From: Lachnospiraceae bacterium
GTDB lineage: Bacteria > Bacillota > Clostridia > Lachnospirales > Lachnospiraceae
Length of the DNA: 64,000 nt
NCBI GenBank assembly: GCA_910575475.1
Contig: CAJTGD010000002.1
Coordinates: forward strand, 124,001-188,000
Direction: 5' to 3'
The first letter of the stretch is position 1. Each line of letters begins with the position of its first letter. A program made the translations under genes and the position numbers. Below, piece after piece: positions 52,674 through 56,109 of this stretch. The notes below the pieces were generated by a model. The model saw only the letters and a program-made list of their open reading frames with translations, did no database searches and was not told the origin of the DNA.

Positions 52674-53486
52674 TTAAAGCTGATCCAAAATTTCTCCGAT
52701 ATCACCATTGATACAAATAGATTTCTTTTTTATTTCATCCGGCGCATATGCCTCTCCATAGTTCAGACAGGCATAAACAGCGTCTTTCCATTGGTGCGTC
52801 ATACGCCAAAAGCTATATTTTACTATTGTTGGCGTATTGAATCCGACTGCTGCCTCTAAAAACAGCACTTTCATATTCTGATGTCTGCGAAGAAATTCTG
52901 CATACCGCTCCGAAGCCAGATGCCATCCCTCATCCTCTACAAAGGTATGGTCCGCCCGGAGGTTCATGCTCATAGGCTCCCCGCATTTCGGGCAATGCGG
53001 AACAAGGTCTGACGGAACTATCATTTCAGGTACTACGCCTTCCGGCAGAATCAGTCTGCCATCCGTATCAATACCATAGCCCTGTGCTTCAACCATTTCC
53101 TGGATAACAGCCCCATTGTCGTAAGTATTCTGGTGACATGGCCTGCTGCACTGGAACAGCCCATAATCCCCCTGTGTATAGAAAAGCCGGTCTTTATCAA
53201 AGCCGGCCTTTTGGAAGCAGTGATCCACATTTGTTGTGAGCACAAAATAATCCTGATCCTTCACAAGCTGAAACAGTCTGTCGTATACCGGTTTCGGCGC
53301 ATCCATATACCGGTTGATATAGATATAGCGGCTCCAATACGCCCAATGCTCCTCCGGCGTACTGTACGGATAAAAGCCTCCCGAATACATATCCTGAAAA
53401 CCGTACTTTGCCTCAAAGTCGGAAAAATAACGCGTAAATCTTTCCCCTGTATACTCAAAACCTGCAGCAGTCGAAAGACCCGCGCC
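52674..53486 (-). pseudogene. Sir2-type (macrodomain-linked) sirtuin, 5' truncated
   Basis: The sirtuin reading can be traced from GAGLSTAAGFEYTGERF (53486, the NAD-binding GAGxS motif) to the stop at 52674. It includes FVLTTNVDHCFQKAGF, with N and catalytic-region D/H, and Cys pairs including CPKCGEPM. The first ~30 residues and any start codon are missing: upstream sequence is the macrodomain reading frame. The first ATG (53390) would give 238 residues without the GAG motif. Macrodomain-sirtuin pairs reverse or install protein ADP-ribosylation. The remaining protein is unlikely to be active. Confidence 0.75.
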
Positions 53487-53806
53487 GGCCGTGGATCATG
53501 GGCCCCACCGTATGAAGGACATAACGGCAGGGCAGATTAAAGCCCTGTGTGATCTTTGCCTTTCCCACGGGCTCCTCATGTCCCTGTTTTTCCATCAGCT
53601 TCGCGCAGGCAGACCGAAGCTGAATGCCGGAAAAAGTGTGGATCGCATTGTCAATGCAGCCGTGGCAGGGGCATCCGGATATTGAAAAGAGAACGCAGAA
53701 GCCTTTTCTGCCCGTCTTCCTCCTCCGGAATCTGCAGCCTTGCATATTCCGGCTGCTCTGTGAGCAATTCGTGGATCAGGTAAATTCTTCTTTCTGTCTG
53801 ATTCAT
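53455..53806 (-). pseudogene. Macrodomain protein, internally deleted and 3' truncated
   Basis: MNQTERRIYLIHELLTEQPE begins at an ATG at 53806 with GAGGTGG upstream and stops after RMPLPRLH at 53651. In another frame the protein resumes at CHGCIDNAIHTF and runs through KAKITQGFNLPCRYVLHTVG to 53455. The segment between, which should hold the NAANSG ADP-ribose loop, is gone, and the C-terminal part is replaced by the sirtuin. Both junctions are inside genes. Confidence 0.75.
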
Positions 53807-53829: not shown

Positions 53830-54182
53830 CTAAAACCGCAGTATTCGGCCTTCCTTTCTTTGTTTCGGCGTGGGATGCGGATCGCCCCCGCGGGGATAAC
53901 CCAGCAAAAGCTGCATCACCGCATAGTGGTCTACGGGAATTTCCCACTTCTTTAATATTTCCTGGCCATACGGGGATTGGAATTTGCCCGCTTGATTTTT
54001 CCGAGCCGCTCATTGACTTCTTTTGTCTGGCAGACGGCAAGGATCACGCCCTGACGTCCGCCCGCGCTGGGGGCATACAATCCCGCCAGCGGAATTTCCT
54101 GCAAGACGTCCTCTTCGATCTGTTTTTCGTCAAATCTGCGGATCGCCCGCCGATGTAAAATGGTCTGCATCGTTTCATTCAT
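53830..54182 (-). pseudogene. Nitroreductase-family protein, internal deletion
   Basis: The ATG at 54182 has GGAGG ten bases upstream and overlaps the rSAM gene end. MNETMQTILHRRAIRRFDEK is a typical FMN-binding start, followed by LAGLYAPSAGGRQGVILAVC. This frame stops at about 53952. A second frame gives GQEILKKWEIPVDHYAVMQL and LLLGYPRGGDPHPTPKQRKE, the usual C-terminal end (stop 53830). About 80 central residues are missing and the two frames are out of step. Confidence 0.75.
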
Positions 54183-54184
54183 CT

Positions 54185-54763
54185 TCAAACAACCTCCTTC
54201 CAGCATTGCGGATCTGCCGCATAAAAATTTCCGTTTGTTCCCTTCGCGACGGCAGGACAGCCGCGGCAGAACGCCAATAGCTCGCACTTTGAGCATTTTT
54301 CAAATTTTTTGTAGTCCCGATAGGCTTCCATTTCACACACCCAGACATCCGCAAGCCTGTCTTTGAATACATTGCCCACTTTGCTGCCGGCTGCCCGTCG
54401 GCAGGCAAGGATGTCGCCGGTGGGGAGGATCGTGATATAGCAGTTGCCGCAGTTGCAGCCGCCGTAGATCATTCCATCCCCTGCGGTTTCGGGAATTTTA
54501 AACGCTCCCGTTTCATATTCATACAGCGTCCACAGATGATCCTTCTTGTTGAAATAAGTCTTACAGCCATATGTCTTAAGTTCACGGCATATCCGGTCGT
54601 AAGTCGTGCAAAAATCAAGACAGTTATCGAACGTGTCCTGGATCTGCTGCCAGTTCATGGAATCTGTTTTTTTGCAGGCATCTCCCGAAAAAATGTAGCA
54701 GTGCCTGCACCGCTGGTCGCATTCATCCGTAATGTGCCATTGAAAAGAAAAATATTGCTTCAT
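54185..54763 (-). pseudogene. Radical SAM/SPASM maturase, in-frame internal deletion
   Basis: 192 residues, about half of the usual ~380. The N-terminus carries the SAM-cluster motif C15-x3-C19-x2-C22 (DECDQRCRHCYIFSG). The C-terminal part holds SPASM-type Cys groups (GGCNCGNC, ACRRAAG, KCSKCELLAFCRGC). The barrel core, including the GGE-like and SAM-contact strands, is missing between CLDFCTTYDR and ICRELKTYG. From memory, the closest known system is the 'ACGX' rSAM family. The adjacent peptide gene supports this. The shortened enzyme is unlikely to work. Confidence 0.75.
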
Positions 54764-54853
54764 TTCGCATACCTCACTTTGTCTTTTTATAGGAAATCGG
54801 CTCCGGCAATCAAAGCCCTTTACCGAAAGAATCCAGATGTACGGTTGGATGCT

Positions 54854-54905: not shown

Positions 54906-55016
54906 TTACTTGCCGCCTGCTCCGCAGGTCGCCGGTGCTTCTGTTGGCTGATCGCCAGCTCCGCAAGCCGAACCTGTATTATTTCCGTTCCATCCAGTCA
55001 AGTTAGAAAGTGCCAT
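54906..55016 (-). CDS. Cys-Gly-Ala-Gly repeat peptide (ACGX-type RiPP precursor)
   Basis: 36 residues from the ATG at 55016, with GGAGG eight bases upstream. The peptide starts MALSNLTGWNGNNTG; the core contains SACGAGDQ (C18) and ATCGAGGK (C31, at the end), two copies of a Cys-Gly-Ala-Gly motif 13 residues apart. This is the pattern of 'ACGX-repeat' peptides that I recall being encoded beside a dedicated radical SAM/SPASM enzyme, which is the arrangement here. Unlike all its neighbours it is undamaged. The modification is unknown; thioether or related cross-links at the Cys residues are an inference. Confidence 0.72.
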   Translation of the reverse strand: MALSNLTGWNGNNTGSACGAGDQPTEAPATCGAGGK

Positions 55017-55070: not shown

Positions 55071-55098
55071 ATTATATGAATTTCTCTGACTCCCACAA
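55071..55098 (-). promoter_or_regulatory. Promoter of the repeat-peptide operon
   Basis: On the minus strand TTGTGG (55098-55093) and a perfect TATAAT (55076-55071) are 16 bases apart. The start site would be about 45 bases before the peptide ATG. Confidence 0.6.
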
Positions 55099-55113
55099 GT
55101 ACGCACTTTTTTA

Positions 55114-55137
55114 TAACCCAGGTTACATTTTAGTAAC
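55114..55137. promoter_or_regulatory. Overlapping palindromes, probable HxlR operator
   Basis: TAACCCAGGTTA (55114-55125) and GTTACATTTTAGTAAC (55122-55137) share the same half-site. They lie between the truncated HxlR-type gene and the peptide promoter. Dyads of GTTAC/GTAAC are the type of site used by HxlR-family regulators. Confidence 0.5.
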
Positions 55138-55197: not shown

Positions 55198-55428
55198 ATG
55201 TTATTGTTTACGCAGTGTCGTATACTCTCGCTGGACGGCATCAGCCAGAAGGTCCTGACGGACAATCTGCGGGCTATGGAGGCAGACGGACTGATCACCC
55301 GCACTGTGTATGCAGAGGTTCCCCCAAGAGTGGAATATTCCCTTTCCGAATTGGGAGAAACGATGCGCCCGATTCTTGACGCTATGGAAGAGTGGGGCAA
55401 TTCCTATAAATCGGCGATACATTCTTGA
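55198..55428 (+). pseudogene. HxlR-family regulator, 5' truncated
   Basis: 76 residues from an ATG at 55198 without a good RBS. DGISQKVLTDNLRAMEADGL and ITRTVYAEVPPRVEYSLSEL are the recognition-helix and wing parts of HxlR regulators (usually ~110 residues). The first helices with the CPVxxTLxxIGxKW-type block are missing from upstream sequence in all frames. The remaining part lacks a full winged-helix core. Confidence 0.75.
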
Positions 55429-55496: not shown

Positions 55497-56057
55497 TCAC
55501 GCATACCACAACGCATGATTTGTAGTGGACACCGCATCCGCGCCGGCGGACAGCGCCGTGATGACATGCTTCTTTTCGGACAGCAGGCCGCCGGATATCA
55601 CCGGGATCTTCACGGCACTTTTGACCTGCCTGATGATATCCGGCATGATCCCGGGCATGATCTCTATGGCGCTGGGCATGGACAGCTCCACCTGCTTTTC
55701 CAGGGAATTCAGCGCGATCGAATCCACCAGGAAGGTCCGCTGTATCGCAATAAAGCCCTGTTTCTGCGCCTCCTTCACAAGATTTGGTTTTGTGCTGACG
55801 ATCCCGTCCGCACCCGCATTTCTCAGGATAAACTCCACGGATACGTCCCGGATCGCCATGCCGGTTACAAAGTCCATGTGTACGATCGCGATTTTCCCAC
55901 AGGCTTTCACCTGCCTGACGATCTCCGTGATGTTGCAGATGGAACCATATAAAATAAATATGATCCTGCATTGTGTTTTAAAGCATTCCCGCAGATCCTC
56001 CTCATTTCTGACCGCGGCGATCATCGGAAAATCCGCGAGTATCTCAGACAGCTTCAT
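55497..56057 (-). CDS. glpP: Glycerol-3-phosphate-responsive antiterminator GlpP
   Basis: 186 residues from the ATG at 56057, with GGAGG upstream. The whole protein is a TIM-barrel-like GlpP: IIFILYGSICNITEIVRQVK, HMDFVTGMAIRDVSVEFI, ADGIVSTKPNLVKEA and IEIMPGIMPDIIRQV, then ISGGLL. When bound to glycerol-3-phosphate, GlpP prevents termination in mRNA leaders. It lies downstream of a HAD phosphatase in one operon. Terminator-bearing leaders are found at both divergent promoters upstream. Confidence 0.93.
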   Translation of the reverse strand: MKLSEILADFPMIAAVRNEEDLRECFKTQCRIIFILYGSICNITEIVRQVKACGKIAIVHMDFVTGMAIRDVSVEFILRNAGADGIVSTKPNLVKEAQKQGFIAIQRTFLVDSIALNSLEKQVELSMPSAIEIMPGIMPDIIRQVKSAVKIPVISGGLLSEKKHVITALSAGADAVSTTNHALWYA

Positions 56058-56109
56058 ACTAATCTCCCTCCTTATCATATGCTCCGCATTGCCCTCATGC
56101 TCTAATTTG

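Follow-up and report, generated by a model that had tools for sequence, protein, structure and literature searches.

The 64,000-nucleotide stretch of Lachnospiraceae DNA analysed here (hereafter the window; its own assembly is G000) contains an intact gene for a short Cys-Gly-rich peptide among broken neighbours, which raises the question of what system this peptide belongs to and how it came to stand alone. A preliminary description of the DNA had proposed a 36-residue peptide gene with a strong ribosome-binding site, a TATAAT element and two CGAG motifs, and all of these are present in the sequence. The gene and its start signals are as follows:

54906..55016, minus strand: ACGX peptide gene, intact, 36 aa with two repeats, assigned by TIGR04341 and in the register of the related locus L072
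55025..55029, minus strand: ribosome-binding site GGAGG, from the sequence, identical in G010 and L072
55071..55098, minus strand: promoter, with -10 TATAAT at 55071-55076, a 16-nt spacer and a weak -35 TTGTGG at 55093-55098
55096..55112, minus strand: operator site 2, AAAAAAGTGCGTACTTG, overlapping the -35; predicted as a probable HxlR operator, with GTGCGTACTT conserved in relatives
55122..55137, minus strand: operator site 1, inverted repeat GTTACTAAAATGTAAC; by eye, many relatives have GTTAC...GTAAC-like sites at the corresponding position

The open reading frame at 54906..55016(-) comprises 36 codons plus a stop, with its ATG start at 55016 and a second in-frame ATG five codons 5' of this one that overlaps the ribosome-binding site. 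The two CGAG motifs lie in SACGAGD and TCGAGGK, so that the repeated ACGX motif is represented by one ACG and one TCG in place of the usual ACG. TIGR04341, the NCBIfam ACGX-repeat model, matches the peptide with 39 bits and an E-value of 9.5e-10 against a cut-off of 28, which confirms the family membership proposed earlier, and no other NCBIfam model matches it at E 1 or better. The suggestion that the gene has its own promoter holds for the TATAAT element; the -35 hexamer, read by eye from the sequence as was the spacer, is weak, and a generic scan of the window did not report the promoter. As L072, which has an intact maturase, also encodes a 36-residue peptide in the same register, this length is natural and there is no need to regard the window peptide as a truncated product; the extra repeats of the peptide of the same-genus genome G010 (83 aa, or 88 from an earlier ATG) may be a gain. 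Between the peptide and maturase genes lies a stem-loop at window positions 54799-54817(-), which by eye is also found in G010. In the relatives, hairpins scored against single-base shuffles had a mean z of -2.3 for the region ahead of the maturase (60 sequences) and -1.7 for the 5' leader (70 sequences), a weak sign of an attenuator.

The surroundings of the peptide gene consist of five remnants:

55231..55428, plus strand: HxlR/DUF24 regulator remnant, C-terminal 65 of 110 residues, matching PF01638 from profile position 28
54185..54763, minus strand: ACGX radical SAM/SPASM maturase remnant, 192 of 344 aa, in which CxxxCxxC and SPASM remain
53830..54182 (ends approximate), minus strand: nitroreductase remnant with a 235-bp frameshifting deletion, junction 53962/53963
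53484..53806, minus strand: macrodomain (protein-ADP-ribose hydrolase) remnant, NF003163 E 7e-32
52674..53483, minus strand: class-M sirtuin (SirTM) remnant; a 312-bp deletion took its start codon together with roughly 34 N-terminal residues of 305

Among the 12 genomes of our same-genus sample, G000 included, a maturase over the TIGR04340 cut-off was found in one, G010 (597.6 bits). Its intact locus (L032) has the order divergent HxlR, operators and promoter, ACGX peptide, radical SAM/SPASM maturase, nitroreductase, macrodomain and SirTM. Global alignment of the window with this locus revealed blocks of more than 150 bp that are 96.5-98.6% identical, separated by the absence from the window of 312, 197, 235, 327, 129 and 300 bp of the operon and of a further 77 bp between two flanking genes. 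At these seven deletions the exact microhomology is 6, 10, 2, 6, 6, 12 and 9 bp, respectively, and five of the six operon deletions share at least 6 bp, a value reached by 0.5% of length-matched random deletions. The flanks contain only single gaps of up to 48 bp across the 4.8 kb before the first operon deletion, most of the sirtuin included, and across 2.3 kb beyond the 77-bp deletion. As the outgroup L072, whose maturase is 90% identical, has the same 36 residues in the same register, the shorter peptide and shorter peptide-maturase gap of the window were not counted as losses. By this alignment the six deletions have removed parts of all five non-peptide genes, namely regulator, maturase, nitroreductase, macrodomain and sirtuin, and the promoter, both operators and the peptide have stayed; the earlier reading of the peptide as the sole undamaged member of its operon was thus correct.

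The maturase has two in-frame deletions, of 327 and 129 bp, which cost it 152 of its 344 residues in the region from about 56 to 217 and leave little of the radical SAM barrel. For want of this central part, the remnant scores 286.7 bits against TIGR04340, under the cut-off of 400, and it is in this reduced form that the ACGX-type radical SAM/SPASM enzyme proposed earlier lies next door. The Pfam match of the nitroreductase remnant spans profile positions 1-56 of 167, the macrodomain has lost 197 bp (53663/53664) and 312 bp (53483/53484), and the sirtuin frame is open from AGAGLS with its first in-frame start codon at 53390, which would give 238 of 305 aa with a weak Pfam Sir2 match. The 300-bp deletion in the regulator (junction 55230/55231, within 12 bp of microhomology) removes 45 N-terminal residues including a conserved Cys. 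Outside the operon, the 77-bp deletion, with 9 bp of microhomology, lies at 56078/56079, just 5' of a glycerol-3-phosphate antiterminator-like gene (55497-56078, minus strand).

A TIGR04340 profile search of G000 found no second full-length maturase, the other matches reaching at most 46.9 bits against 400, so that a complete ACGX system was found in G010 and not in G000. This speaks against maturation in trans, one of the fates envisaged for the peptide in the preliminary description, and makes the window peptide an orphan. If it is made, we infer that it is unmodified and free of HxlR control. Taken together, the alignment and the profile matches make it very probable that the window peptide gene is the survivor of a decayed ACGX cassette.

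What such a cassette contains when intact can be seen in relatives. A scan of genome contigs yielded at least 567 confirmed maturase stretches, and as the best 80 of these were analysed, the following frequencies describe near relatives. An ACGX peptide lies 5' of the maturase in 72 of the 80, bearing out the conservation on which the family assignment had been staked; seven of the eight without it have less than 500 bp of upstream sequence, the eighth being L135. This conservation and the TIGR04341 score argue that the window reading frame is not due to chance. The 72 peptides are 36 to 142 aa long (by a rough start rule), and of their 482 Cys residues 476 have Gly after them and 460 have Ala before them. 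Neighbours were counted by tblastn in loci with at least 1.6 kb upstream for HxlR or at least 4 kb downstream for the enzymes. This revealed a divergent HxlR gene near the maturase in 62 of 67 loci and, downstream, a nitroreductase in 38, an MDR dehydrogenase in 16, a PPOX-ferredoxin protein in 42, a macrodomain in 34 and a class-M sirtuin in 38 of 55, with the order nitroreductase, PPOX, macrodomain, SirTM in 21 of 55. A nitroreductase, which the preliminary description had placed in the system, is therefore usual but not universal, its place being open to an MDR dehydrogenase; the HxlR regulator, its candidate operator and the macrodomain-sirtuin pair (all three genes broken in the window) are parts that description did not include. 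In a survey of the same family, 50 of 397 genomes had a maturase over the cut-off, a few of them apparently broken (G078, G137, G166). A Pfam scan of the downstream side covered 101 of 103 unassigned open reading frames, two having been dropped for length, and no transporter or peptidase family recurred in more than two of the 101. Near some cassettes (L092, L124, L142) the same scan showed DUF1848 (3/101), DUF5131 (4/101) and Radical_SAM (4/101) proteins. A contig from the IMG/VR viral collection (L252) carries a 52% relative of the ACGX maturase.

The GTGCGTACTT box occurs in 66 of 71 promoters including that of the window, or 65 of 70 without it, where shuffled 10-mers average 0.01; in total there are 71 copies across the 1.18 Mb of the 80 relative loci. 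In most relatives it lies about 75-95 bp 5' of the peptide start, with the inverted-repeat site, located by eye, some 30 bp upstream of it, and in the window both operator sites and the promoter are kept. G000 has a single copy of the 12-mer AAGTGCGTACTT, at the ACGX promoter, and also a single copy of its reversed control. In 12 chosen genomes the 12-mer gave 11 matches in eight, against four for the reversed control: six were at ACGX loci, three beside other HxlR genes (G359, G010, G002), one directly 5' of a stand-alone SirTM (G321) and one beside neither HxlR nor SirTM (G401). As matches beside other HxlR genes and before a stand-alone SirTM fit an HxlR operator, the GTGCGTACTT box is, from its distribution, a probable candidate for that role. 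In G321 the AAGTGCGTACTT match adjoins the 5' side of the SirTM gene (L225, G321:C1:484331-485314), and the ACGX maturase of this genome is on a different contig. Among 40 loci fetched as unlinked SirTM the operator box was found in nine, which include the decayed locus L224, with 1/40 for the reversed pattern and a mean of 0.7 (maximum 7) for 200 letter-shuffled 10-mers; the presence of the box at unlinked SirTM loci is suggestive only. In all ten aligned relatives the regulator has the winged helix-turn-helix and conserved N-terminal Cys of HxlR/DUF24 proteins, Cys11 being invariant, and the window copy lacks this residue. The Bacillus members HypR, YodB and CatR use conserved N-terminal Cys residues to detect HOCl, quinones and diamide, and their regulons include nitroreductase and flavin disulfide reductase genes, as stated in excerpts of PMC6943732.

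From this gene neighbourhood in near relatives it is possible, at somewhat less than even odds, that intact copies form an intracellular redox or electrophile-response cassette. In such a cassette, HxlR with its one invariant Cys would act as a thiol or electrophile sensor controlling the operon, and the radical SAM enzyme would modify the peptide at its Cys-Gly repeats. The modified peptide would remain intracellular, a location proposed because no protease or exporter recurs downstream; there it would buffer electrophiles or act as a sulfur redox carrier, and flavin or NAD(P)H enzymes would serve it. ADP-ribosylation by the SirTM/macrodomain pair might then act on or beside the peptide system.

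The identity of this pair is clear in the intact locus. The L032 sirtuin matches the solved SirTM 5a3a at E 1e-61 and aligns TQGDYGLFQCS with IQGEYGLWQCS, placing QG at the catalytic His position, a SirTM feature according to an excerpt of PMC4518038; it is thus a class-M sirtuin, of which the window copy is a version without a start. Directly 5' lies a macrodomain of the protein-ADP-ribose hydrolase type (8rsi, E 2.3e-82; 5kiv, E 6.3e-76), broken in the window, whose Cys/His-rich GCFCPCHGCIDNAIH stretch in L032 aligns with 8rsi. Excerpts of PMC11490716 and PMC4518038 link SirTM/Zn-Macro pairs with oxidative stress, and the former gives GcvH-L as the only known SirTM target, with those of other SirTM/Zn-Macro pairs unknown.

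There is an even chance that the macrodomain-SirTM pair is a bystander of the same redox-stress regulon that never touches the peptide. SirTM was found in 184 of 397 family genomes, and of the 150 copies listed, 125 have no over-cut-off maturase beside them (four of these adjoin sub-cut-off pieces); 10 of the 40 unlinked SirTM loci have less than 4.3 kb upstream of SirTM, so that a maturase could be hidden there. SirTM also persists at loci whose maturase is gone or truncated (G360, G269, G009). Against a bystander role, a same-strand SirTM lies 0.6-4.3 kb downstream in at least 25 of the 52 over-cut-off maturase loci of the family survey, a lower bound given the 150 SirTMs listed and contig ends, and SirTM is linked in 38 of 55 near relatives. 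Neither GcvH-L nor LplA2 is among the 25 of 83 families listed for the 101 downstream reading frames, families outside that listing having at most two members. The SirTM tree bears on both sides. Two entries had been placed among the 22 "unlinked" rows of an earlier tree, L173/G109, where a maturase end lies at the contig edge, and L191/G360, a decayed ACGX locus; with these as unlinked, and with L138 as a long branch, 15 linked/unlinked changes were counted (shuffled mean 18.9; 20/500 as low), and the corrected tree has 12 (shuffled mean 17.4). As 3 of 500 shuffles were as low, SirTM linkage is clustered on the tree, yet with repeated gains or losses: linked and unlinked copies interleave, and a dedicated ACGX clade of SirTM is unsupported. 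Acidic residues in the peptide do not track SirTM either, with means of 0.128 in 32 peptides with it and 0.136 in 16 without. In several places (G002:C1:81556-84087, L240, L232, L227) SirTM genes or fragments stand side by side.

The redox-cassette reading has a bolder and unlikely form, in which the ACGX peptide of intact operons would be the counterpart of the GcvH-L of staphylococci and streptococci. It would be a small carrier of sulfur that a radical SAM enzyme, rather than lipoylation, makes ready for use, and flavin or NAD(P)H oxidoreductases would work on it. SirTM and macrodomain ADP-ribosylation would turn it off and on, with HxlR as the controlling thiol sensor. Were this so, the peptide would be a substrate of lone SirTM/Zn-Macro pairs, and a ribosomal peptide would serve as an intracellular redox device.

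Returning to the window, the peptide might be an orphan that is still useful unmodified, as a Cys-rich thiol or metal buffer, the enzymes having been lost and promoter and peptide kept. The in-frame peptide, its natural length and the intact promoter and operators, which a free relic need not keep, speak for this, as does G370, which likewise retains operator and peptide with maturase residues 1-93 missing and its maturase C-terminus cut by the contig end. Other broken-looking ACGX loci, besides this one (L249), are L224 (G360), L245 (G269), L247 (G383), L248 (G078), L251 (G137) and that in G166; their defects are a missing N- or C-terminus of the maturase, no maturase match, or an internal stop (in G383). 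Two of them speak against a useful orphan: G360 keeps HxlR, operator and SirTM and has no maturase match, and its peptide runs into a foreign C-terminus, while no ACGX peptide was found at the G269 locus. The second repeat of the window peptide is also off consensus, with TCG where Ala usually precedes the Cys, and the peptide is too short for a selection test. We consider a useful orphan improbable next to the decayed cassette.

Slightly less probable still is that the product of an intact ACGX system is a RiPP secreted as an antimicrobial: the nearest solved relatives of the maturase include SkfB (6efn) and a short precursor-like gene lies 5' of the maturase, but no transporter or peptidase family recurs in the downstream scan, and the linked genes are redox and ADP-ribosylation enzymes and an HxlR regulator. 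It is very improbable that assembly or binning produced the deletions and the strain has an intact operon: the genome is a draft of 159 contigs with an estimated contamination of 7.46%, but the aligned blocks on both sides are of the high identity given above, the junctions share merely 2-12 bp, below usual assembler overlaps, and similar losses occur in other genera of the family.

ACGX is named as a family in NCBIfam (TIGR04341/TIGR04340); the window peptide passes its model and the remnant maturase, although broken and under the cut-off, belongs to the same family. These models cover the peptide and the radical SAM enzyme alone, to which the cassette, as read from its sequences, adds regulator, operator, oxidoreductases, macrodomain and sirtuin. 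In the open-access literature, most subscription papers lying outside it, we found no description of the ACGX system, of TIGR04340/TIGR04341 or of ACGX with radical SAM, the word ACGX leading to titles on other subjects; nothing joining SirTM and radical SAM was found there, and a cassette with HxlR, operator and ADP-ribosylation genes appears in no open-access paper found. The window adds a case of a peptide outliving its maturase.

Among SPASM RiPP maturases, SkfB (6efn), 5v1q and 5wgg, the last two of which we take to be SuiB and CteB, share the radical SAM core, the SPASM type and an adjoining short precursor. The ACGX maturase differs in being about 344 aa long and beginning at the radical SAM core, which leaves no room for an N-terminal leader-recognition domain, and in having no export or protease family recurring downstream. 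The thio(seleno)oxazole maturase SbtM (TIGR04082) is the second-best NCBIfam match of the remnant, at 62.9 bits far under its cut-off of 350. The cassette resembles the Bacillus HxlR/DUF24 stress regulons (YodB, CatR, HypR), as excerpts of PMC6943732 present them, in its N-terminal-Cys HxlR and a nitroreductase under such control, and adds to them the peptide, the radical SAM maturase and the ADP-ribosylation pair; this suggests an intracellular stress role rather than an antibiotic one. With the SirTM/Zn-Macro extended operon, as it appears in excerpts of PMC4518038 and PMC11490716, it has in common relatives of SirTM and of the macrodomain, adjoining oxidoreductases of the flavin type, and a small protein encoded in the operon that is possibly a modified sulfur carrier. 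In comparison with that operon, the ACGX peptide and radical SAM enzyme replace GcvH-L and the lipoate ligase LplA2, nitroreductase, MDR or PPOX-ferredoxin proteins replace OYE/LLM, and an HxlR regulator is added. The cassette offers a concrete candidate target for SirTM pairs, with its own regulator and candidate operator.
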